Part shown: positions 1,234 to 33,987 of the stretch, in pieces
Layout of the letters: each line of letters starts with the position of its first letter
Numbering within the stretch: the stretch's first letter is position 1
Assembly (NCBI GenBank): GCA_002167745.1
Contig: NHCB01000005.1
Coordinates: 84,143 to 118,129, forward strand
Direction of reading: 5' to 3'
From: Betaproteobacteria bacterium TMED22
GTDB taxonomy: Bacteria; Pseudomonadota; Gammaproteobacteria; Burkholderiales; Eutrophovitaceae
Length of the DNA stretch: 33,987 bases
Notes under the pieces: model-generated
Told to the model about the DNA's origin: nothing
Databases searched by the model: none
What the model saw: only the letters and a program-made list of their open reading frames with translations
Program-made: the position numbers and the translations under genes

Positions 1234-3522
1234 ATGTCTGACGAACTTAAAGTCGCCGCATTGGAATATCATGAAAGTCCTAAACCTGGAAAAATATCAG
1301 TCGTTCCAACAAAAGGTCTCACTAACCAGAGAGATTTAGCCTTAGCCTATTCTCCGGGGGTTGCTTACGCATGCAAAGCAATAGAGTCTGATCCAACTCT
1401 AGCGGCCAGATATACCTCTCGAGCCAATCTTGTTGGTGTTGTCACTAACGGATCAGCTGTATTGGGACTAGGCAATATTGGTCCGCTAGCGGGCAAACCG
1501 GTTATGGAAGGCAAAGCATGTTTATTCAAAAAATTTGCCGGTATTGATGTTTTTGATATCGAGTTGGCAGAAACAGACCCAGATAAACTAGTAGATATCA
1601 TTGCAGCTTTGGAGCCCACTCTTGGTGGCATTAATCTAGAGGACATCAAGGCCCCAGAGTGTTTTTATATCGAACAGAAACTAAAAGAGAGACTTAAAAT
1701 CCCTGTTTTTCATGATGATCAGCATGGCACGGCGATTATTGTCGGAGCGGCAGTTATAAATGGACTAAAAGTGGTTGGTAAAAATTTAAGAGATGTGCGC
1801 ATTGTCTGTTCGGGTGCAGGCGCCGCGGCTATCGCTTGTCTCAACTTGCTCATCACTCTAGGTATTAAAAAAGAAAATATAATTGTTTGCGATTCGAAAG
1901 GTGTAATCTCCACGACTCGCGCTGGAACTCTTGATGAAAATAAAGCAATATATGCGCGTGATACGGCCTTCGTTACCATAGACCAAGCACTGCTGGATGC
2001 TGATATCTTTCTTGGATTATCGGGACCAGGAACGATCAAAAAAGAATGGATCGCCGAAATGGCCGATAGGCCGCTAGTGTTAGCGCTTGCTAATCCAATA
2101 CCTGAAATTATGCCTGAAGAAATTAAATCAGTTCGACCTGACGCAGTCATAGCGACCGGCCGGTCAGACTATCCTAACCAGGTCAATAACGTTTTATGCT
2201 TTCCTTTTATTTTTAGAGGAGCTCTAGATGTTGGAGCGACTAAAATAAATGAAGAGATGAAACTAGCCTGCGTGTACGCTATTGCCGAATTAGCTCAAGC
2301 GGAGCGCTCAGATGTTGTGGCCTCAGCATACGAGGGACAAGAATTGAGTTTTGGGCCAGAATATATAATCCCCACCCCTTTTGATCCTAGGCTTATTACA
2401 TTGATTGCACCAGCTGTAGCGCAAGCTGCAATGAATAGTGGCGTAGCGACACTACCTATACAGGATATGGCTGACTATCGTGAAAAAATCTCTAACCTCG
2501 TCTATCAAACCGGTTTTGTGATGAAGCCAGTTTTTGAGGCTGCGAAAGCGGACTTAAAGAGAGTCATATATGCGGAGGGAGAAGATGAAAGAGTATTGCA
2601 AGCGGTTCAGGCCGTCTCAGATGAAAAACTATGTATTCCAATTCTCATTGGTCGTCCCGAAGTCATCAAATCACGAATTAAACGAGCCGGATTGCGAATT
2701 AAAATTGGAGAGGACTTTGAGGTAGTTAACCCCGAAAATGACGAACGTTTCAAAGAGACTTGGTCGGACTACTATCAGATTATGAGACGGAAAGGCGTAT
2801 CGCCTGAGGACGCGAAGACAGCAGTGAGGACTTCAACTACCCTCATAGGCGCCATGCTGGTAAGAAAGGGCGATGCCGACGCATTAATTTGCGGATCAAT
2901 TGGACGCTACCAAGATCATTTAAAACACGTAAACGATGTAATTGGTAAAAGAGAAAACGCCTCAATATTTGCATCAATGAATTTACTACCAATGCAGAAC
3001 CGCACGCTGTTCATCAGTGACACCTATGTTAACCACGACCCATCGGCCCAAGAAATAGCAGAAATAACAATGATGGCAGCAGATGAGGTCAAGCGATTCG
3101 GCTTAGCACCTAAGGTAGCTCTGGTTTCACATTCCAATTTCGGAACTGAAATAAACCCATCTGCTACCAAAATGAGTGATGCACTCGATATTATTGAAAA
3201 ACTGGACCCGAATATAGAAATTGATGGGGAGATGCACGGTGACGCAGCTTTAAATGAGACGATTCGACACCGCATACATCCAGACTCAAAGTTAAAAGGA
3301 GAGGCAAATCTATTGATTATGCCCACCATTGAGGCAGCGAATATAGCTTATAATCTATTAAAAATGGTTAGTGGGGATGGTATTACCGTGGGCCCGATTC
3401 TTTTAGGGGCTAAAAAGGCCGTACATATCGTTACTCCGACGGTAACTGTTCGCAGGATCGTTAACATGACGGCCTTAGCGTCTGTCGATGCAACCTCCAG
3501 AGACAACGAAATGGTAAAGTAA
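1234..3522 (+). CDS. maeB: NADP-dependent malic enzyme fused to phosphotransacetylase-like domain (MaeB)
   Basis: Malic enzyme converts malate to pyruvate and CO2 with reduction of NAD(P), linking the TCA cycle to pyruvate, acetyl-CoA and NADPH supply. The 762-residue length matches the MaeB hybrid class. The N-terminal malic domain carries LAYSPGVA with the catalytic-type tyrosine Y39 and the metal-site motif HDDQHGTA; the NAD-binding domain has a [10 protein letters not shown] loop and ends around residue 420. The remaining third is a phosphate acetyltransferase-like domain ([43 protein letters not shown]). In characterised MaeB proteins this domain is regulatory and responds to acetyl-CoA rather than acting as Pta. 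The ATG at 1234 has a G-rich ribosome-binding site. A paralogue lies at the right edge of the window. NADP rather than NAD preference is inferred from the family. Confidence 0.95.
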
Positions 3523-3635
3523 CGCTTTTAGAAGGATAGATACAGATTGTATTTATGTGATGGAAGGCATTAAATTACTTTACTCAATGAGGAGCGCTAA
3601 TTAAGCGTCGTAAAGCTTAGTGAAAAGGAGAAAAG

Positions 3636-4427
3636 ATGTCTGAGAAAAACCTGTTTTCTGGCGAGATGACTGAAAAACAGCGTCTATTTCGCAAAGAGTA
3701 TAAACGAAACATAGCGAAATGGTACTCGGGATGGGGACACCTCCTATCAATATATATACCCGGAATAGCAGTCATCGGGCTCTGTATTTCTCAAATTGAA
3801 AATCCAACTTGGACGGAAATCCTTTTTCTGATTCCTATACTTGTGATTTACAACTTTAACGAATGGTGGATACATAAGAATGCAATGCATAAACCCGTCA
3901 AGGGTTTCAGTGGCGCACTATTCCCAGTATTCCATCGGCACGTGCATCAACATCATCAATATTTCACATCAAAAAGAATGACTTACGACGCAAGTCGTGA
4001 ATGGCGAATCGTTCTATTTCCGCCATACGCGTTATTAATATTCTTGCTCGGCACCGTTCCTATGGCATTAATCATCGGTTACCTGTGGACGCCAAACGCG
4101 GGATACGTACTCATGCTGTCCACTCCTTTCTATTACCTAAATTACGAAACGTTTCATTTATGCTGTCACGTACAGGAAAACTGGTTCGTTCGTAACTGTC
4201 CGCTAGTTAATACGATTCGAAGGCATCACGCCGCTCATCATAGCCAGCACATCATGACGGCAAGGAATATGAACTTAACCTATCCAATCGCTGATTGGTA
4301 TATGGGGACAAGCGATCTTGATCGTGGATTAATTGGGCATCTTTTTAATGGATATAATCAAAAGTATATTAAAAGTGAATTTCAATCCGACCAAGGTATC
4401 GAACTTGAGCAAACACTCTCTACATAA
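3636..4427 (+). CDS. Sterol desaturase / fatty acid hydroxylase superfamily membrane protein
   Basis: This 263-residue membrane protein belongs to the histidine-box di-iron oxygenase superfamily, whose members hydroxylate or desaturate lipids using O2. The histidine clusters are HKNAMH (in EWWIHKNAMHKP), HRHVHQHH and RRHHAAHH, in the family order and between hydrophobic segments near residues 30-50, 60-80 and 125-150. A clear AAAGGAGA ribosome-binding site precedes the ATG at 3636. It lies 22 bases upstream of oxyR in the same direction, so the two may be co-transcribed. The substrate is unknown; membrane fatty acyl chains or a carotenoid-like lipid are both possible. Family assignment is firm, specific function is not. 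Confidence 0.85.
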   Translation: MSEKNLFSGEMTEKQRLFRKEYKRNIAKWYSGWGHLLSIYIPGIAVIGLCISQIENPTWTEILFLIPILVIYNFNEWWIHKNAMHKPVKGFSGALFPVFHRHVHQHHQYFTSKRMTYDASREWRIVLFPPYALLIFLLGTVPMALIIGYLWTPNAGYVLMLSTPFYYLNYETFHLCCHVQENWFVRNCPLVNTIRRHHAAHHSQHIMTARNMNLTYPIADWYMGTSDLDRGLIGHLFNGYNQKYIKSEFQSDQGIELEQTLST

Positions 4428-4449
4428 AGCGTTATAAAAATTTCAACTC

Positions 4450-5403
4450 ATGGGAGCTGCCGTACCAACTATAAGGCAACTGAAATATCTAATCGTATTA
4501 TCAGAGACGCTAAATTTTCGTCAGGCCTCCGAAAAACTCTTTATAACGCAATCAACGCTCTCGGCTGGAATAAAAGAGCTCGAGAGAACATTAGGAGCGG
4601 TACTTTTAGAAAGAACCAAACGCTCAGTCCGGCTGACTAATATTGGCAAAGAAGTATTAGAAAGGGCTCTATCGATAGCATCTCAGGCTGATGACTTGGC
4701 CAGGATTACGGACCGCTTAAAAAAACCACTCAGTGGCACTTTAAAATTAGGCATAATTCCTACGATTGCTCCATTTTTGCTGCCAATGGTCATTCCAGCA
4801 TTAAAATCCACTTACCCGGAATTAAAGCTGTACCTAAGGGAAGATTATTCGGCTCGTCTTTTAGAACAAATCAAGTCTGGGATGCTGGATTTTGCGGTTA
4901 TCGCCTTGCCTTTTGAAACAGAAGATCTCATCGTCAATAAGTTATTCAAAGACGAATTTTGGTGGGTTGCGAAAAAAGGACAGCAGCTCTCGCAACTTGA
5001 AGAGATTTCAATAAAAGATATCAACCTAAATGAACTTCTCCTGCTCGAAGAGGGACACTGTCTTAGAGATCACGCCATCGAGGCCTGCGGGCCTAAAACA
5101 AACAATTCAATTGATCAATCTTTCGCGGCGACAAGTCTATACACTCTCCTACAAATGATTGACAGTGGTTTAGGCTGCACGCTCCTACCCGAAATGGTCA
5201 TTAAATCTGGAACTCTCTTAGGGACTGAGCTCATCGCGAGACCATTCTCCAACAAACCACCATTTCGCGAAATAGCGTTGGTAAAAAGAAAAACCGACAA
5301 CAATAAAACCGACTTCGAACTTCTGTCAGCACTAATCGTATCGGAAAAAAGACAGTGCTCGCCAACGCTTGGCGCGTCTCGTTCGAAACCAATATCAACT
5401 TAA
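4450..5403 (+). CDS. oxyR: OxyR, LysR-family hydrogen peroxide sensor
   Basis: This 317-residue LysR-type regulator has an N-terminal winged helix-turn-helix (RQASEKLFITQSTLSAGIKE, about residues 24-43) and a C-terminal effector domain. The OxyR identity rests on GHCLRDHAIEAC: C204 and C213 match in spacing the redox cysteines C199 and C208 of Escherichia coli OxyR, which form the activating disulfide with H2O2. The following ATSLYTLLQMIDSGLGCTLLP stretch is also OxyR-like. In known systems OxyR controls catalase, peroxiredoxin and thiol-repair genes; none is adjacent here. The start at 4450 lacks a visible Shine-Dalgarno, and its closeness to the hydroxylase gene suggests translational or transcriptional coupling. 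Confidence 0.92.
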   Translation: MGAAVPTIRQLKYLIVLSETLNFRQASEKLFITQSTLSAGIKELERTLGAVLLERTKRSVRLTNIGKEVLERALSIASQADDLARITDRLKKPLSGTLKLGIIPTIAPFLLPMVIPALKSTYPELKLYLREDYSARLLEQIKSGMLDFAVIALPFETEDLIVNKLFKDEFWWVAKKGQQLSQLEEISIKDINLNELLLLEEGHCLRDHAIEACGPKTNNSIDQSFAATSLYTLLQMIDSGLGCTLLPEMVIKSGTLLGTELIARPFSNKPPFREIALVKRKTDNNKTDFELLSALIVSEKRQCSPTLGASRSKPIST

Positions 5404-5486
5404 CGCAAATTCCAGAGGTTAACCGATTTGGCTCGAAGTACAATAAAATAGGTTAGTTATTAAAGTAAGAGTACCTTATATTCAAA

Positions 5487-6461
5487 ATGCAAAATGCCGA
5501 CGAGTGGAAATTTCCTCATTCCTTGAGGCCTGATCCTGAGAAATTGATGTTCAACCTCAGTAAAGCTATCAATTCTGTTGTAAAAGTTAGAACCGTAATT
5601 CCTTCGGCTGCGTTTACGGCGGACGTCCTAGGAACCGAACGCATTGGAAGCGGAGTACTAATTAACGATAGTGGTTTAATCCTGACCGTAGGTTATTTAG
5701 TGACGGAAGCGGAAACTGTCTGGCTAACAACCAATCTCAACCAAAGTATCCTTGGGCATGTAGTCGCGTATGATCAAGTCACAGGACTAGGTTTAGTCCA
5801 AACGTTAGGATCATTGGATATTGAACCCTCTGAGTTAGACCCAAACGAGCTCTGTACCGTAAATGATGATATTTTCTTTGTTAGCTATGGTGGCATTGAA
5901 CACGCGCTAAATTGTAATATCAGTCGGATAGACGAATTTGCTGGCTATTGGGAGTATCTTCTTGAGGACGCGATCTACACATCTCCTCCTCACCCCCAAT
6001 GGGGGGGGGCAGCAGTATTCAACACGAGAGGGTATGTTATCGGTATAGGCTCTTTATTTTTACAAAATATATCCGAAGCGCAAAATCAACAAGGCAATCT
6101 GGCGATACCGATAAGCATTTTAAAACCCATTTTGGGTGCTATGGTGGAGTTCGGGAGAGCATTAACGCCAGCAAGACCTTGGTTAGGCATGTATACGGTC
6201 GAATCTGAGGATGGCCTAATCGTCAGTAGCTTAGCCCGTTACGGGCCTGCCGAGCTAGCCGGCATTTTACAAGGAGACAAAATTATTGGGGTTAGCGAAG
6301 AAAAAGTATCAACGCTAGCTAGTTTATTTCGATCTATTTGGAGTATTGGTGCTGCTGGTGTCTCGGTACCAATAAACATACACCGTGACGGAAATCACCT
6401 GCAACTTGCAGTCAACTCTATAGATCGAAATGACTTCCTTCTTAAGCCGCAAATACACTAA
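5487..6461 (+). CDS. HtrA-like (S1C) protein with degenerate catalytic triad and PDZ domain
   Basis: This 324-residue protein has the HtrA layout, a trypsin-like domain (about 25-230) and one C-terminal PDZ domain (about 235-315), but looks proteolytically dead. The usual TNxHVV motif reads TVGYLV, with tyrosine (Y70) for the catalytic histidine. The DLAVL aspartate is glycine (G100 in TGLGLV). The GNSGG serine position reads PQWGGA, with tryptophan (W172). No signal peptide or membrane anchor is visible, so it is probably cytoplasmic. It lies 27 bases upstream of the amidohydrolase and 83 bases downstream of oxyR, all in one direction. A scaffold, chaperone or peptide-sensing role is possible but unproven. 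A nine-G homopolymer sits exactly at the lost serine motif. An intact, active HtrA is encoded at 29687-30811. Confidence 0.8.
   Translation: MQNADEWKFPHSLRPDPEKLMFNLSKAINSVVKVRTVIPSAAFTADVLGTERIGSGVLINDSGLILTVGYLVTEAETVWLTTNLNQSILGHVVAYDQVTGLGLVQTLGSLDIEPSELDPNELCTVNDDIFFVSYGGIEHALNCNISRIDEFAGYWEYLLEDAIYTSPPHPQWGGAAVFNTRGYVIGIGSLFLQNISEAQNQQGNLAIPISILKPILGAMVEFGRALTPARPWLGMYTVESEDGLIVSSLARYGPAELAGILQGDKIIGVSEEKVSTLASLFRSIWSIGAAGVSVPINIHRDGNHLQLAVNSIDRNDFLLKPQIH
6001..6009. repeat. Nine-G homopolymer within the HtrA-like gene
   Basis: Nine consecutive G residues at 6001-6009 encode part of W172-G173-G174 and the first base of A175. They follow a C5 run at 5993-5997, so the DNA can also fold back on itself. 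Gain or loss of one G would shift the reading frame and remove the last half of the protein including the PDZ domain. The present tract length is in frame. Confidence 0.8.
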
Positions 6462-6488
6462 AGATAAAGCTTTCAGGAGGATATTCAG

Positions 6489-8177
6489 ATGGAAGACTTG
6501 TTAATTAAAAACGGTACTGTGATCGATGGATCCGGAGGAGAAAGGTTTATTGCAGACGTCTCAGTTAAAGATGGCGTCATTACTGGCGTTGGTTCAAACC
6601 TTGGTCGAGCCTCTCGAACTATCGAAGCTGGGGGCCTCCTAGTAACTCCTGGATTCGTGGATGTGCATACCCACTATGACGGGCAAGTTACCTGGGATCC
6701 GTATTTAACTCCATCCACTTTCCACGGAGTGACTACAGCAATTTTTGGAAACTGCGGTGTTGGGTTCGCACCAGTTCGGAAAAACGATATTTCCTACTTG
6801 ATAAATTTGATGGAGGGTGTGGAAGATATCCCAGGCTCCGTTCTTTCAGAAGGTGTTCAGTTCAACTGGGAGTCTTTTCCAGAATATCTCGATGTGCTCA
6901 GCTCATCCTCCAAAGCTATCGATATCGGAGCGCAAGTTCCACATGGCCCCTTGCGCTTTTACGTTATGGGCGAGAGAGGAGCAGACCACACCGCCACTCC
7001 ATCTGAAGCTGAAATAAAATCAATGGGTTTGCTTCTTGAGGAAGCCTTAGATGCAGGCGCTCTTGGATTCACCACTTCCAGAACAACAAAACACTTAAGT
7101 CGCGACGGACAAAATACACCTAGTCTTTCCGCGGGAAATATTGAAATGCGCGGATTAGCTGAAGCGATGAAACGAGCGGGAAAAGGTATTATTGAGGTCA
7201 ACTCTGATTTTGGTCCAGGTGAATTCGAAATAATGCGCATGGTTAGTGAGATTTCGGGTCGGCCACTTTCTATACTTCTTCTTCAAACAAATAATTCGCC
7301 AGATCTTTGGAAACAAACACGAGATCAAATTCACTTAGCTCGATCTCAAGGCCTCAGCGTGAATGGCCAAGTTGGCTGTCGCCCTATTGTAATAATCATG
7401 GGGCTTGAAACTACAATCAATCCATTTTCAACTCATCCTAAGTGGATTGAAATGTGCGCGCTATCTCCAGAGGAACGGTTCATAAAAATTAAAAATGATT
7501 CCGATCTGCGTCACGATCTAGTCCATAAAATACCCGATGATGAACATACGAGGCGTATTAAAGATTGGTTACCCAAAACATTTTTTATGCATAAAGGCTT
7601 TGATTATGAGCCATCGCCCGAGGACAATATATGTAAAATCGCGGAAAAAAAAGGATTGAATCCTTTGGAAGTCGCTCTTGAAGGGATGCTTAACAACGAC
7701 GGTAAAGGGTTATTGGCACATACATTTGAAAACTATTTTGATGGTGATCTCGAAGTTATAAGAGACATGTTACTGGATGAAGGTACGATCATGGGGCTTG
7801 GTGATGGAGGGGCACATGTCTGCACTGTATGTGACGAAGGGGCCCCCACCTATCTATTGTCTCACTGGGGTCGCGATAGAACTCGAGGGCCGACCATACC
7901 GTTAGAGTTTTTAATTAAGAAACACACCTCCATTAGCGCCAAAGGCTACGGTCTTTATGATCGAGGACTGCTTAAAACTGGATACAAAGCGGATATCAAC
8001 GTCATAAATTATGAACGGTTAGCGTTATTAGATGCTGAAATTATTTATGACTTACCTGCTGGCGGTAGACGTCTAATGCAAAGAGCTACGGGATACAACC
8101 ATACATTTGTATCTGGAATTGAAATTATTCAAAATGACGAGCAGACTGGCAATCTACCTGGCAGTCTGCTCAAATAA
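6489..8177 (+). CDS. N-acyl-D-amino-acid deacylase-like amidohydrolase
   Basis: This 562-residue protein belongs to the metal-dependent amidohydrolase family (amidohydrolase 3 type) that includes D-aminoacylases, which release D-amino acids from N-acyl derivatives. The N-terminal beta domain is followed by the metal-binding HTHYDGQ motif (H60 and H62) and by FGNCGVGFAP, whose C89 corresponds to the zinc-ligand cysteine of D-aminoacylases. A late GLGDGGAHV supplies the expected catalytic aspartate. It is longer than the roughly 480-residue classical D-aminoacylases, as are many uncharacterised relatives. The start has a strong CAGGAGG ribosome-binding site. The SDR gene follows after 18 bases, so the two probably share an mRNA. 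Substrate is unknown; other cyclic or N-acyl amides remain possible. Confidence 0.85.
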   Translation: MEDLLIKNGTVIDGSGGERFIADVSVKDGVITGVGSNLGRASRTIEAGGLLVTPGFVDVHTHYDGQVTWDPYLTPSTFHGVTTAIFGNCGVGFAPVRKNDISYLINLMEGVEDIPGSVLSEGVQFNWESFPEYLDVLSSSSKAIDIGAQVPHGPLRFYVMGERGADHTATPSEAEIKSMGLLLEEALDAGALGFTTSRTTKHLSRDGQNTPSLSAGNIEMRGLAEAMKRAGKGIIEVNSDFGPGEFEIMRMVSEISGRPLSILLLQTNNSPDLWKQTRDQIHLARSQGLSVNGQVGCRPIVIIMGLETTINPFSTHPKWIEMCALSPEERFIKIKNDSDLRHDLVHKIPDDEHTRRIKDWLPKTFFMHKGFDYEPSPEDNICKIAEKKGLNPLEVALEGMLNNDGKGLLAHTFENYFDGDLEVIRDMLLDEGTIMGLGDGGAHVCTVCDEGAPTYLLSHWGRDRTRGPTIPLEFLIKKHTSISAKGYGLYDRGLLKTGYKADINVINYERLALLDAEIIYDLPAGGRRLMQRATGYNHTFVSGIEIIQNDEQTGNLPGSLLK

Positions 8178-8195
8178 AGGACTGGTCAATTCAAT

Positions 8196-8966
8196 ATGGA
8201 CCTTAAAGAAGCTGTCATCATAATTACTGGGGGAGGCACAGGAGTTGGATCAGCCTGTGCGCATGCATTAGCAAAATGTGGTGCTAGAATTGTCATTAGT
8301 TATAATAAAAGTGAAGAAGGTGCGCTCCATACCAAAAAAAAATGTAACACTGCGGGAGGTGATGCGATCACGGTTCAAGGTGATGTTTCCATTGATGACG
8401 ATTGTAAAAACATAGTAGCGGAAGCTATAGGCAAATGGGGCAGGATTGATGGGCTAGTTAACAATGCAGGCATCACTAAATTCGCGGCTCCTAACGATCT
8501 CGATGCTCTAAGCTCCCAAGACTTTATTGATCTGTACTCCACAAACGTGGTTGGTACCTACCAAATGATTCGAGCCTGTTCCAAATACCTTAAAACTTCT
8601 GGAGGGTCCATCGTGAATGTCTCCTCTATTGCTGGAATAAAAGGAATTGGTTCATCTACGGCATATATCGCCTCTAAAGCCGCATTGAACGCTATGACGA
8701 TAGCTCTTGCGCGGGCGCTAGCTCCAGAAATTCGTGTCAATGCAGTCTGTCCTGGCCTTGTAGATACCGAATGGCACTCAAAACGATACTCTCAAGAAGA
8801 GTACAAATCATTTCTTGAAAGATATGAAAAGACAGTTCCACTTGGGGCAGCGGCAAAGCCTGAGGATATAGCTGAGACTATTCTGTGGTTAATATCCTCA
8901 GCCAAATTAATCACAGGGGAAACTGTCTTGATAGATGCCGGACTACACTTAGGTAAACCAATGTAA
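8196..8966 (+). CDS. Short-chain dehydrogenase/reductase (SDR)
   Basis: This 256-residue classical SDR has the NAD(P)-binding motif TGGGTGVG (residues 11-18), the structural NNAG motif, and the catalytic YxxxK pair Y157/K161 preceded by the serine of NVSS. The late VNAVCPG and ITGETVLIDAG segments are also typical, and the active site looks complete. It closely follows the D-aminoacylase-like gene, so it may act on a product of that enzyme or in the same catabolic route, but neither sequence identifies the substrate. Among SDRs it most resembles the FabG/3-oxoacyl-ACP reductase-like group, which covers many unrelated activities. Confidence 0.9.
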   Translation: MDLKEAVIIITGGGTGVGSACAHALAKCGARIVISYNKSEEGALHTKKKCNTAGGDAITVQGDVSIDDDCKNIVAEAIGKWGRIDGLVNNAGITKFAAPNDLDALSSQDFIDLYSTNVVGTYQMIRACSKYLKTSGGSIVNVSSIAGIKGIGSSTAYIASKAALNAMTIALARALAPEIRVNAVCPGLVDTEWHSKRYSQEEYKSFLERYEKTVPLGAAAKPEDIAETILWLISSAKLITGETVLIDAGLHLGKPM

Positions 8967-9086
8967 CAATCACCGAACTTTTTTCAAAGAAACTCGGTAA
9001 TTCGAGATACGTCGTTTAGAGGCAAACAGCCAGGTATGAATTCTTTCACAAGCTTAAAGGTAAGTTTTAGAGCTCTAGACTATATT

Positions 9087-12000
9087 CTAAAGTTCAATTA
9101 ATTCACCGCCAATTAAAACCACACCGATACGTATGGGCTTATCCTTCCTGATCTTCACGAAGTCGTCGCGATATTGAACTAACTGGCTTTTATATTGATA
9201 CAGCATTTCCGAACTAGGTTTCGAATCCGGATCTAGCGAAATTTTATAGTCAAGTATCCAAATCTCATCATCAAACTCAATAAGACGATCAATTCTTCGA
9301 ATATCGCCACTCCGATTGATGTAAGCCACCTCATTGTGAGCCTTAAGGTATTCCTTCGGGTTAAAAAATCGTTTAAGGGATATTGAATTTATTATTTTCA
9401 AACTCGTATCCCATGCGTTATCAAAGTCATTAGGAATTGCATCAAAGACCCGCTTCATAGCATCCTTGCTGATCAATTCAGAATCCACGGTAACTGTCTC
9501 CAATATTTTATGTACCAACGTTCCAAACTCCATGCTGGCATTATTAACCTGAATGAGCCTTATACCTACCGAAAAATGCTCTTCATTAGATTTGTGGTAG
9601 TGCTCACGTGCGTCACCAGCCATGCCATTCGCAAGATTACTGTCGATATCAGACGTATCCTCGAGAACATTAGTTAAGCTACAACGCTCCGCCGCATCCT
9701 TCAGTTGGGAATACCAAGTGGCCACTTCTTTCTCTTTTCCTACTACGCCCGACACGTACAACGCTTGTTTTGCTCTCGTGACTGCCACATACAAAAGATT
9801 TATGTCTTCGATTTTGTTAAGCATGTTATGGCGCTCAAACAATTCGGATCGTGCTTGCCCAAAATCGTTCTTCGCGCCGAATGCAGAAAAATGATTGGGG
9901 AAATCATCGCCAGGCGTCCAGTCGACTAAAATACTCCAATTATCACCATCCATTGCTGCATTCGCATCCGCCAAGAAAACAACAGGAGCTTCTAGCCCTT
10001 TAGCGCCGTGAATTGTCATGATCCGGACAGAACTTACCGATCCTAAATACGAACCTTCTTCTGGTCCTGCTCCCTCCTCTAGCCGCAATAATCTAATTTG
10101 CTCCAAAAATCGATCTATGCTTGGAAAGCGCCCCGCAGAAAAGTCTAAGGAATACTCTAGAAATGCAATCAAATTCGAGCGCACACGCTCAGCTATCTCA
10201 GGCAATGCATTTCCGGCATACCGATTCAACAAGTCGGATTCACTGTAGAGCACGTCAAGCAGATCATGGACGGGCAACGTATCCGCGTATCTGATCCAGA
10301 CTAACAGCGAAGTTGTCGCCGAGTTCAATTCAGCTGGTATTTTTTGTTTCTTAGATTCCTGATCCTCAATCAAAAGACTCCATATGGACTTTTCTTCTCG
10401 ATGAATAAACACTTTTAATAATGCGTCATCAATGGAAAATAATGGCGACTTCAGGACATTGATTAAATGATGATCGACATTGGGAGCAATAAGAAAACTA
10501 AGCAGAGAAACCATATCTTGAACTTCTGGAGACTCAAGTAGCGCTCCCACACGTTGGCTGACAAATGGAATACCCAATGCTCTCATAGCATCCTCATACT
10601 TTTTCAGATGCGTTCGTCGCCTGATAAGGATTAATACGTCCGAGTACTTGATAGAACGATTCTCGCCATTGGAACTAATACTTTTTCTCGCCACTAATGA
10701 GCCAATCTTCTCACCAATCATTAAACCCTCTTCATAATGCCGATAATCCAAAGGTTCTAATCTGGCAACATCTAATGGATCTCTCCATTTCTCCCTCTCA
10801 GAAGCATCAGCCACCTCAACCGATTCGATCAATGGCATTACTTCCACTTCCGATGATAAAGATCGATCCATGGATTCTTGCGGCACAAAGTTAGCAATCT
10901 TCTCCCTAAAACACTCATTCACTAGATTTGAAATTCCAGGCGCATTTCGATAACTCGTATTTTGAATAACCTTCCGCCCGCCCATTTCCGCAACAACTAA
11001 TTTCTCTGCAACTCCAAAAAGGCGTGGTTCAGCCCTTCTGAACCGATAAATGGACTGCTTTGGATCGCCAACAAAAAATAATCTTATAGTTGTGCCCGCT
11101 TGATTAGACGCATCAATCCAGGATTTCAAAATAGTCCACTGAATTGGGTTCGTATCTTGAAACTCATCAACTAACAAGTGCGTATAACGAGAATCTAACC
11201 GATGCAAAACAAAATCAGCTTGATCATCCTCCATTAACAATGATCTGACGTTCCATTCTAAATCTGAAAAATCCAGAATATTACTTTCACTTTTAAACGA
11301 TTGGAATGTTTGCAGCAAACCGTCTCCTACGATTTTTACCGCACTATCCAATTGATCTGCCAACCAATCTGTCCTCAGCATCACCAACTGATCTGCAAGC
11401 GCTCTTAATTCCGAGCTCAAGCGGACATAATGTTCCGCATTGCTCGCCCCCATCCTTTGCGTCATGGCTTTTGAGATTTTTTTGTCTTTACATATTTTTA
11501 CCCAGGACATAAACCACTCATCAGGACTATCAGATACCTGGATGGATTCCAGCGCAGCAAGCGCACGCATCTCACCTGGCAGATTATTTTCTCTAATTAA
11601 CACCTTGAATTTAGCTAATTTTGATAGAAACACGTGGTCAGTCAAAAAATTATCGAGAGGATCTTGATCCTGATTACGGCGCCAAGTGGCTGCAATTTGT
11701 TTGATATCGCCACTTTCTGAACTAGCCCACCAATCCAGACGGTTATCCAAAAATCGCTTGAGTATTTTGTGTGTATTGTGAAGTTCGTATCGTCCATAGA
11801 GGTAATTAAGGGCATCTAAAGCATCCTGGTTTGAGACGATCTGTTGAAAGAATTGCTCCCAAGCGTCTCGTAAAATTAAGCTGTCATCATCTTGCAGCGC
11901 TCTACCACGACCCGATTGAGTAGACCAAGGTGCCATTTTTAAAACTTGTATAAACCAACCATGGAAAGTATTTATGTTTACCCCGCCAGGCGTGGATAAA

Positions 12001-29686: not shown

Positions 29687-30811
29687 ATGTCGCCTAATGG
29701 TCAAGATAACGCTCGATCACCACTCTCAACGAGCCTAATATTATTTGTAGTCTGTGTAACAGGAGGTTTGGTCTATCTTAACGCCGCCAGTGACCCAAAT
29801 AAAATTGAACCCAGACCAATAACATCGAGAGGACCACTCAATAGTGAAGAGCAATCGACCATATCGATCTTTGAAACATCAAAAAAATCAGTCGTTTTTA
29901 TCAGTACGAAACAACGGGTCAGAGACTTTTGGACCAGAGATATCTTCTCGGTTCCTAGCGGCACAGGATCTGGCTTGATATGGGATGCTCACGGTCATGT
30001 TATAACGAACTTTCATGTTATTAAAGGCAGTAGTGAAGCGACCGTTCGACTCGAAGATGGCCGAGATTACAAAGCCTCTTTGATTGGAGTTAGTCCTTCG
30101 CACGATCTTGCAGTGCTAAAAATAACCGTAGTCACTCAGTCTCCTCCACCCATTCCAATCGGAGAGAGTGAAAACTTGAGAGTCGGACAAAAGGTATATG
30201 CGATTGGTAATCCGTTCGGTTTAGACTGGACGTTGACAACCGGTATTGTATCGGCTCTGGATCGCAGCTTAAGTACAGACGGCGGACAGAATATAGAGCA
30301 TTTAATCCAAACTGATGCCGCGATTAATCCAGGAAACTCTGGAGGGCCTCTGCTTGACTCCGCAGGCCGATTAATTGGCATTAATACTGCGATCTACAGT
30401 CCCTCTGGGGCTTCTGCCGGAATTGGATTTGCAGTACCAGTAGACACCATTAATCGTGTCGTTCCTCAATTAATACAGTATAAAAAATATACTCCTCCAA
30501 GCATCGGCATACATCTTGATCCAGGTCTCAATAGACGGATTACTCGTACGATGGGAATTAACGGAGTTGCGATTCTTAGAGTATTACCGGGATCACCTGC
30601 TGCAAAGTCTGGACTCGAAGCGGCCAGACTAAGATCTGATGGCGTTATTGTTCCAGGCGACATTATTGTTAAGGTCGATGGCACTCCAGTTGAATCGGTT
30701 AGTGCTTACCAAGGGATTATGGATAACTTTGAAAACGGCGACGAAATTACAATCTCCGTTCATCGGCATGGAGAAATATTAGATTTTTTAGTTGAGGTTG
30801 AAGGTAGATAA
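29687..30811 (+). CDS. Membrane-anchored HtrA-family serine protease, one PDZ domain (DegS-like)
   Basis: This 374-residue protein has an N-terminal membrane segment (about residues 15-33, SLILFVVCVTGGLVYL), an intact S1C protease domain and one PDZ domain. The catalytic triad is H110 (TNFHVI), D140 (HDLAVL) and S218 (GNSGGP). One anchor plus one PDZ resembles DegS, which in Escherichia coli cleaves the anti-sigma factor RseA; no rseA or rpoE is in the window, so that role is not shown. It would act in the periplasm on misfolded or regulatory proteins. The start at 29687 has no Shine-Dalgarno sequence. It contrasts with the dead relative at 5487-6461. Confidence 0.92.
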   Translation: MSPNGQDNARSPLSTSLILFVVCVTGGLVYLNAASDPNKIEPRPITSRGPLNSEEQSTISIFETSKKSVVFISTKQRVRDFWTRDIFSVPSGTGSGLIWDAHGHVITNFHVIKGSSEATVRLEDGRDYKASLIGVSPSHDLAVLKITVVTQSPPPIPIGESENLRVGQKVYAIGNPFGLDWTLTTGIVSALDRSLSTDGGQNIEHLIQTDAAINPGNSGGPLLDSAGRLIGINTAIYSPSGASAGIGFAVPVDTINRVVPQLIQYKKYTPPSIGIHLDPGLNRRITRTMGINGVAILRVLPGSPAAKSGLEAARLRSDGVIVPGDIIVKVDGTPVESVSAYQGIMDNFENGDEITISVHRHGEILDFLVEVEGR

Positions 30812-32354: not shown

Positions 32355-33987
32355 TTATCGATTGGTAATTGCGTCGACAGAACAAAGTGCAGACATATTT
32401 ACCAACCTCCGAACAGTTGCAGTTGCGGTTAGTACGTGAACCACTTTCTCCGGACCAAGCAAAATTGGACCAACGGTGATGCCTTCACCCACGGTAACCT
32501 TCAATAAATTAAACGCAATATTTGCAGCATCAAGATTCGGCATAACTAATAGATTAGCTTCTCCCGAGATCTGAGCGTTAGGAAAAATCCTCTGGCGAAT
32601 TTTTTCATCTAAAGCGGCATCACCGTGCATCTCACCTTCCACTTTTAGCGTGGAATCTCTTTTAAGAATCATTTCTCTTACTAATGACATTTTTTGTGCT
32701 GAAGCATCTTTAGATGTGCCGAAGTTAGAGTGTGACAGTAGTGCAATATTGGGTTCGACACCAAATCGTCTAACCTCCTCGGCGGCCAACAATGCTATCT
32801 CAGTAATTTCCTCTGCATTAGGATTAATGTTGACATAGGTATCACATACAAAAATTGTCCTACCAGGGAGGATCAGGACATTCATCGTGGCATAGCGACT
32901 CACCCCTTGACGCAGGCCTATGACTTCATTGATATAGCGAAGATGTATATCGAAATTAGCAATGGTGCCGCAAAGCATTGCATCAGCGTCATCGTTATTA
33001 ACCATTAATGCACCAATCAACGTAGTTCTGCGCGATGCTTCTCGTGTTGCATATGCCGCAGAAATACCTTTACGTTGCATAATTTGATAGTACTGTTTCC
33101 AGTAATGTTCAATTCTAGGGTCAGTATTCGGATCGAACAACTCAAAATCGCGATGAGGTCTAATTCTTAGTCCCGCTTTTTCAATTCTCTCTTCCAGAAC
33201 CTTCGGTCTTGCAATCAATATTGGTCTTGCAAGACCTTCATCAACAACGATTTGAACTGCACGCAAAACCCGCTCATCCTCTCCTTCACAATAGACAACT
33301 CGTTGAGGATTTTGCTTCGCCGCTAAAAAGACCGGCTTCATAATGATCCCGGAATGATAAACAAACTGCGTCAATCGATCTCGATATGCGTCAAAGTCAT
33401 GAATTGGTCTCGTTGATACACCACTTTTGATAGCCGCCTCAGCTACAGCCGGAGCAATCCGAACAATCAGCCGTGGATCAAATGGCTTTGGAATAAAGTA
33501 GGTCGGACCAAATCTCATTTCCAGATTCTCATAAGCCGTTGCTACAACATCTGATTGCTCCTCTCTAGCGAGCTCTGCAATAGCCCTAACCGCGGCGAGC
33601 TTCATTTCATCATTGATTTCAGTAGCTCCTACATCAAGTGCCCCTCGAAAAATAAATGGAAAACACAAGACATTATTGACCTGATTAGGGAAGTCGGAAC
33701 GACCGGTGGCCATTATCGCGTCCGGTCTAGCCTGCCGCACAATCTCTGGGTGAATCTCAGGGTCAGGATTAGCCAGCGCAAGAATCACTGGATTTTCGCT
33801 CATGCACTTAATTGCGTCCTCACTCAACACATTAGCTACTGACAAGCCGAGGAATACATCAGCATTAACCATTAAATCCGACAAACTTCGATCCTCGGTG
33901 TCCTGGGCAAACTGAGCTTTAATTTCATCCATCTCAATTTCTCGTCCCTGGTACACGACACCGTGTATGTCCGCGACGTAAATATTA
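32355..33987 (-). CDS. maeB: Second MaeB-type malic enzyme (N-terminus beyond window)
   Basis: At least 544 codons of a malic enzyme-phosphotransacetylase fusion are present and the frame stays open to the right edge, so the N-terminal malic domain is missing here. The edge sequence NIYVADIHGVV corresponds to the NAD-binding domain region of the first copy. It continues with [20 protein letters not shown] and the phosphotransacetylase-like part ([29 protein letters not shown]). An internal GTG at 33956 should not be taken as the start. It is clearly homologous to the protein at 1234-3522 but diverged, so it is a paralogue and not a recent duplicate. Two MaeB copies are common in betaproteobacteria and may differ in cofactor or regulation. 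Confidence 0.95.
   Translation of the reverse strand, partial: NIYVADIHGVVYQGREIEMDEIKAQFAQDTEDRSLSDLMVNADVFLGLSVANVLSEDAIKCMSENPVILALANPDPEIHPEIVRQARPDAIMATGRSDFPNQVNNVLCFPFIFRGALDVGATEINDEMKLAAVRAIAELAREEQSDVVATAYENLEMRFGPTYFIPKPFDPRLIVRIAPAVAEAAIKSGVSTRPIHDFDAYRDRLTQFVYHSGIIMKPVFLAAKQNPQRVVYCEGEDERVLRAVQIVVDEGLARPILIARPKVLEERIEKAGLRIRPHRDFELFDPNTDPRIEHYWKQYYQIMQRKGISAAYATREASRRTTLIGALMVNNDDADAMLCGTIANFDIHLRYINEVIGLRQGVSRYATMNVLILPGRTIFVCDTYVNINPNAEEITEIALLAAEEVRRFGVEPNIALLSHSNFGTSKDASAQKMSLVREMILKRDSTLKVEGEMHGDAALDEKIRQRIFPNAQISGEANLLVMPNLDAANIAFNLLKVTVGEGITVGPILLGPEKVVHVLTATATVRRLVNMSALCSVDAITNR

Follow-up and report, generated by a model that had tools for sequence, protein, structure and literature searches.

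What maintains a protease fold whose catalytic residues are gone? The question is raised by a gene at positions 5487–6461 of the forward strand in a 33,987-nucleotide stretch of DNA from Betaproteobacteria bacterium TMED22 (contig NHCB01000005.1, positions 84,143 to 118,129; the whole stretch is called the window here). Its 324-amino-acid product has a trypsin-like fold, one PDZ domain and no evident signal peptide, and lacks the catalytic triad of the HtrA/Deg proteases (MEROPS S1C). We find that the dead form is under strong purifying selection and is not decaying, and that dead HtrA-like proteins of this kind, judged by their sequences, are a separate, conserved pseudoprotease family. Our preferred reading, held with moderate confidence, is that selection keeps this HtrA-type pseudoprotease as a soluble binding adaptor or scaffold in the cytosol.

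The reading frame is unbroken from ATG to TAA over 324 codons. Pfam places two domains in the protein, each above its curated cut-off: a trypsin-like domain (Trypsin_2, E value of 1.3e-11; residues 54–187, positions 5646–6047) and a PDZ domain (PDZ_2, E value of 1.8e-9; residues 232–309, positions 6180–6413). Pfam finds no others, and the protein ends after the PDZ domain. The HtrA/Deg order of a chymotrypsin/trypsin-like domain and then PDZ is seen in the Pfam assignment, in the structural model and in the fold search, while the matches to NCBIfam HtrA models are weak and fall far short of the cut-offs (best 62.5 bits against 416.2, TIGR02037). An AlphaFold2 model built from 38 related sequences has a mean predicted local distance difference test score (pLDDT) of 91.5 and a predicted template modelling score (pTM) of 0.89. 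Among the Foldseek matches listed for this model, DegQ, DegP, DegS and HhoA are the best (top E value of 6.4e-22), and every match listed by Foldseek and VIA-align is a protease of the HtrA type or a related one. Structural alignment to DegS (6ew9_C) gives a Z score of 25.6 over 284 aligned residues, with a root-mean-square deviation of 5.8 that probably reflects a different orientation of the domains. The model thus predicts an HtrA fold with high confidence, in agreement with an earlier note, made from the DNA letters, which had held that the protease fold and PDZ domain are retained in frame and had proposed structural modelling.

The same note had placed the lost catalytic residues at Y70, G100 and W172. 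We examined these positions in two alignments, a MAFFT alignment of 101 distinct HtrA-like sequences and a profile–profile alignment between 83 dead-type and 10 active-type sequences. The 101 sequences are from the fetched loci, from which duplicates and fragments of under 250 amino acids (L067 and L068 among these) had been dropped. They comprise 10 active-type sequences with H, D and S, which served as the active set in the tree and the alignments (the window's own and others of the same genome or order), and 91 dead-type sequences; of the latter, 83 have no evident export signal (cytosolic-type, the window protein included) and 8 are exported-type.

Tyrosine replaces the catalytic histidine (Tyr70, codon at 5694–5696) and glycine replaces the aspartate (Gly100, codon at 5784–5786) in all 83 cytosolic-type and all 8 exported-type sequences, and the His-Asp-Ser triad is absent from 91 of 91 family members. 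These two assignments of the earlier note stand, whereas the third is one residue off: in both alignments W172 pairs with the asparagine that precedes the serine, and it is G173 that pairs with the serine itself (codons of both residues at 6000–6005). The profile–profile alignment rules out W172 as the serine position. Trp172 is present in 83 of 83 cytosolic-type and 3 of 8 exported-type proteins. Position 173 is occupied by Gly (75), Ser (6) or Cys (2) in the cytosolic type and by Ser (5), Ala (2) or Gly (1) in the exported type; the nucleophile position varies among small residues, but the His and Asp positions are fixed to new residues. We considered the Ser or Cys at position 173 of some members as a kept nucleophile and do not favour this, although the position is not uniformly lost; because His and Asp are replaced in 91 of 91 sequences, a classical triad is impossible even in those members.

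Could the gene simply be a former protease in decay? All of its catalytic residues are gone, one genome of the same genus (G001, described below) has lost the gene, and some plasmid-borne homologues are frame-broken. Eighty plasmid records have a match, of which 40 were listed; among these, 26 copies have at least 40% identity, and inspection of the 4 of the 26 with split matches revealed frame changes in each (H15, H22, H24, H26; L140–L143). Copies in genomes point the other way, with no internal stops in the 20 closest matches from the window's own and related genomes and none in 41 matches from a sample of the phylum. Among seven congener sequences, the ratio of non-synonymous to synonymous substitution rates (dN/dS, Nei–Gojobori) is 0.06–0.13 in the 9 of 21 pairs for which dS is computable, two of them with dS above 2; the remaining 12 pairs are saturated, and the corresponding ratio of uncorrected proportions (pN/pS) is 0.15–0.25 in all 21. 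Across the 83 cytosolic-type sequences, 32 of 324 columns are fully invariant. Y70, G100, W172, H169, R52, W155, E156 and Y157 are invariant there and occur in 0 of 10 active-type HtrAs at these columns, and the equally invariant E74 occurs in 1 of 10. The stop-free phylum copies, low dN/dS and fixed replacement residues, within a single well-supported clade, rule against decay, which we regard as hardly credible. The protein thus combines a protease fold, catalytic residues lost across a conserved clade and purifying selection, as expected of a pseudoprotease. The earlier note had proposed selection for a non-proteolytic role, which these data support; it had also named relatives that keep the triad, or frequent frameshifts, as signs of decay. 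No such relative is found among the 91, and the 20 and 41 genome copies have no internal stops, yet frame changes are present in the 4 plasmid copies.

In a maximum-likelihood tree of the 101 sequences, a branch with support of 100/100 splits the 91 dead-type proteins from the 10 active-type HtrAs. Identity to active HtrAs is only about 20–31%. The place of the family within all HtrAs and its own root are unsettled, because the active set is small and the connecting branch long. The 83 cytosolic-type sequences are chiefly from Alpha- and Betaproteobacteria, and the family has members in the Rhizobiaceae, Nitrobacteraceae, Methylobacteriaceae, Hyphomicrobiaceae, Acetobacteraceae, Rhodospirillaceae, Granulosicoccaceae and several Burkholderiales. 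At E ≤ 1e-40, 15 of the 17 genomes in the window's GTDB family have a match, as do 4 of 276 genomes sampled from the class and 41 of 397 sampled from the phylum. The window's genome is counted in both samples, and the phylum figure also covers the exported type; 11 of these 41 lie outside the fetched set used for residue and export typing. Within the genus, whose genomes are small (1.2–2.1 Mb, some incomplete), the gene is present in 7 of 8 assessable genomes.

Public records that we examined annotate these proteins as 'S1C family serine protease' or 'signal protein PDZ', and one further record has no annotation at the locus. Plasmid records of Neorhizobium, Rhizobium, Phyllobacterium and Pararhizobium contain the same family with the same replaced positions (43–46% identity over 91–95% of the query in five of them), and the protease annotation of these rhizobial homologues appears to be wrong too. 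As a result of the serine-protease annotation, proteins that probably do not cut stand in the records as enzymes.

Where in the cell these proteins reside was assessed from the highest 12-residue Kyte–Doolittle mean between up to 60 codons upstream and residue 40. With a cut-off of 2.2, which was picked after the values were known, none of the 83 cytosolic-type sequences exceeds it (median 1.42, highest 2.20; window protein included), whereas 8 of the 10 active-type HtrAs do, the lowest value of that set being 2.11, as do 5 of the 8 exported-type proteins. By this hydropathy measure, the main clade is probably cytosolic. The exported-type label was given because the upstream stretches resemble signal peptides by eye; hydropathy above 2.2 bears it out for 5 of 8, but not for L065, L090 and L091. 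This sister dead clade (L085–L091 plus L065) likewise lacks the triad, has C-terminal ends that differ from those of the cytosolic type, and has the Ser173 noted above in 5 of 8. Seven of its sequences form a clade with support of 100/99 that is nested within the rooted tree (root unsure), to which the neighbouring L065 was added; L065 still carries the tree label cyto_dead, having been typed as exported later, and the group under that label needs two changes there. On hydropathy and this unsure root, the simplest reading would be a family of cytosolic proteins, one branch of which regained export.

How might such a protein act? In the mechanism that we propose, the protein would act as an adaptor or scaffold in the cytosol: its PDZ domain would bind proteins or peptides and leave them uncut, and the former active-site cleft, now refilled, would perhaps also hold partners. 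We infer the cytosolic location from hydropathy, and the binding of proteins or peptides and the adaptor role from conservation. The PDZ domain is the likely partner-binding part. In HtrAs, a PDZ loop of this pattern (here WLG-x-Y/F) binds carboxylate; W232 and G234 are conserved in 83 of 83 sequences and L233 in 77, and the usual peptide-binding loop pattern is thereby kept. A second conserved element is the C-terminal tail, residues 313–324 (DRNDFLLKPQIH; 6423–6458), with Arg at position −11 in 83 of 83 sequences, Pro at −4 in 79, and His (66) or Gln (17) as the last residue. The block of residues 311–320 is modelled with a mean confidence of 90 and that of the last four with a mean of 52, which suggests that the tail may contact another molecule. 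The earlier note mentions neither this fixed tail nor the lack of an evident export signal, nor the sister clade that seems to be exported.

HtrA-fold pseudoproteases as such are already known. MamO of magnetotactic bacteria is one with a non-proteolytic role, and such proteins are reported to have arisen independently in three magnetotactic taxa (PMC4794232). Like the window protein, MamO is an HtrA-fold pseudoprotease from Proteobacteria; it has a transporter domain and a surface metal-binding di-histidine motif, whereas the window protein stops after one PDZ domain and has lost both His and Asp. PflC is a triad-less, HtrA-like structural part of the Campylobacter flagellar motor, described as periplasmic, with a protease:PDZ:PDZ architecture and a role in a lattice (PMC12222027). 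The window protein resembles it in being HtrA-like and triad-less, and differs in having a single PDZ stretch in Pfam and no evident export signal. A 2008 survey of 966 prokaryotic serine proteases counted 42 homologues that are probably inactive; 2 of these are among 247 trypsin-like proteases (PMC2605481).

From DegP, DegQ, DegS and HhoA, with which it shares by model the fold and the order of a trypsin-like domain and then PDZ, the window protein is set apart by its lack of a triad and of an evident export signal and by its other invariant residues. MamO and PflC are the two bacterial HtrA-fold pseudoproteases with studied roles that a search of the open-access literature brought up. The dead family, which has matches in 41 of the 397 genomes sampled from the phylum, is broader than these, and its main clade seems cytosolic. 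None of the titles and abstract starts listed in that search (supplementary tables being outside its scope) describes this family, which is uncharacterised within the literature searched. Selection maintains the dead form across many bacteria of soils and the sea, where it most likely binds other proteins inside the cell, and its fixed residues and C-terminal tail are targets for learning how a protease fold turns into a binding protein.

The family's invariant residues admit another explanation, in which they have turned the former catalytic cleft into a new functional site, for a small ligand, a metal or cofactor, or new chemistry, with the PDZ domain secondary. The polar and aromatic residues Y70, H169, W172, W155-E156-Y157 and R52, which the active-type HtrAs lack at these columns, would suit such a site, as would E74; D96 is shared with 9 of 10 active-type HtrAs. 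MamO provides a precedent for an HtrA fold repurposed for metal binding (PMC4794232). However, of the 8 exported-type sequences one keeps His169 and three keep Trp172, the alignment with active HtrAs is gappy around residues 150–157, and neither a cofactor motif nor an informative neighbour is seen in the sequences. We consider the new-site explanation unlikely. A broader proposal, equally tentative, is that in this family, as an ancient cytosolic HtrA branch, the WEY turn together with Tyr70, Glu74, Asp96, His169 and Trp172 has made the old cleft a new site for binding or catalysis, linked to the PDZ domain and the tail, as part of an uncharacterised signalling or adaptor system of Alpha- and Betaproteobacteria.

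Regulation of, or assembly with, an active HtrA through mixed oligomers is a further alternative. Active-type HtrAs are encoded in the same genome (G000 contig 5; window 29687–30811). The window does encode an active-type paralogue, as the earlier note had stated, at the latter position on the forward strand (His, Asp and Ser motifs NFHV, HDL and GNSGGP; hydrophobic N-terminal segment). Reportedly, MamO promotes MamE-dependent proteolysis (PMC4794232). The active-type proteins, including that of the window, start with hydrophobic stretches, whereas no export signal is evident in the main clade, and this contrast in hydropathy leads us to expect different compartments. Given also the low identity between the two groups (about 20–31%, as above), mixed oligomers seem very improbable.

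Several observations weigh against the binding-adaptor reading that we prefer. With a hydropathy cut-off of 2.0 in place of 2.2, 11 of 83 cytosolic-type sequences would score above it, against 10 of 10 active-type and 6 of 8 exported-type sequences. We infer peptide binding by the PDZ domain from conservation of its loop only. A terminal His or Gln is an atypical PDZ ligand, and the conserved tail alone is therefore no argument for self-binding. The frame changes in 4 of the 26 listed plasmid copies could be assembly error or decay. Neighbouring genes vary among lineages and point to no partner, and the genome that lost the gene, G001, shows it to be dispensable there.

The gene's neighbours in the window lie on the same strand. 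A LysR-type regulator gene lies upstream (4450–5403, 83-base-pair (bp) gap); downstream, after 27 bp, is a gene for an amidohydrolase (Amidohydro_3; 6489–8177), which is preceded by a plain ribosome-binding sequence (ggagg) and followed by a gene for a short-chain dehydrogenase (SDR; 8196–8966). The nearest solved chains to the amidohydrolase by sequence are D-aminoacylases (E value of 1.8e-30, over residues 3–197), and 'D-aminoacylase-like' would be a fair label, although not an assignment. The earlier note was correct about the 27-base spacing and the succession of the two genes, which it took for a putative operon. Promoter-like and terminator-like patterns in 3400–9100 are no commoner than in shuffled sequence, and lie below the shuffle means; 'operon' would hold in the sense of close same-strand spacing only.

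If the protein were a subunit or chaperone dedicated to the neighbouring amidohydrolase and SDR, its gene would be expected to travel with theirs. We called neighbouring genes with a coarse custom script at 60 loci, in 58 of which the dead HtrA gene itself was called (L040 and L069 were missed and dropped from the neighbour counts); setting aside 7 exported-type loci and 4 without a downstream gene left 47 testable loci, L065 among them. The amidohydrolase gene is directly downstream in 11 of these 47, each of them in the window's GTDB family: all 7 congeners that carry the gene, the window's genome among them, and all 4 genomes of one sister genus. The SDR gene follows it in all 5 congeners whose contig extends far enough and in G001, but not in sister genus g4. 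In the other 36 loci the amidohydrolase is not adjacent, and sister genera g2 and g3 keep the dead HtrA gene without it. None of the loci examined from outside the window's GTDB family shows the arrangement seen in the window. Neighbours identified in other lineages are mutually unrelated (benzoate transporter-like, sulfatase, epoxide hydrolase, cyclase and others), with small groups of near relatives having neighbours in common; DUF992 is upstream in three rhizobial records (L094, L099 and L142), two of which also have glycerate kinase.

A natural deletion bears on the same question. Two of nine genomes of the genus have no match, G001 and G008; the absence from G008 is not assessable because its amidohydrolase gene is at a contig edge and no LysR gene is found at E ≤ 1e-50. 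In G001, the 110 bp between the LysR gene and the amidohydrolase gene still code for a stretch that matches the final 14 residues of the protein and the stop. This scar (L133:7116–7163) agrees with a congener at 8 of 14 residues, and its match score is 58, against a maximum of 32 in 5,000 mononucleotide shuffles. The gene was most likely once present in G001 and then deleted, to judge by this remnant, while the LysR, amidohydrolase (81% identical) and SDR genes stayed. The retention of the enzymes after loss of the dead HtrA gene alone argues against an obligate role for it with the amidohydrolase and SDR. The deletion and the 36 of 47 non-adjacent loci rule out a general operon with the D-aminoacylase-like gene; the operon of the earlier note is local at most, and the conservation of the neighbourhood, which the note had suggested examining, ends with the GTDB family in the loci covered. 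The neighbouring amidohydrolase and SDR are not general partners of the dead HtrA, and a dedicated subunit role, whatever the tight spacing within the genus, is very unlikely.

Further upstream, a 263-amino-acid protein is encoded at 3636–4427, between a malic enzyme gene and the LysR gene. It has no Pfam or NCBIfam match at E ≤ 0.001, contains what look by eye like histidine-box-like motifs, and belongs to a cluster common to 9 loci. The window also holds two genes of one cluster, at 1234–3522 and 32355–33986 (the second cut by the window end), for both of which a reading of the sequence suggests the name malic-enzyme-like.
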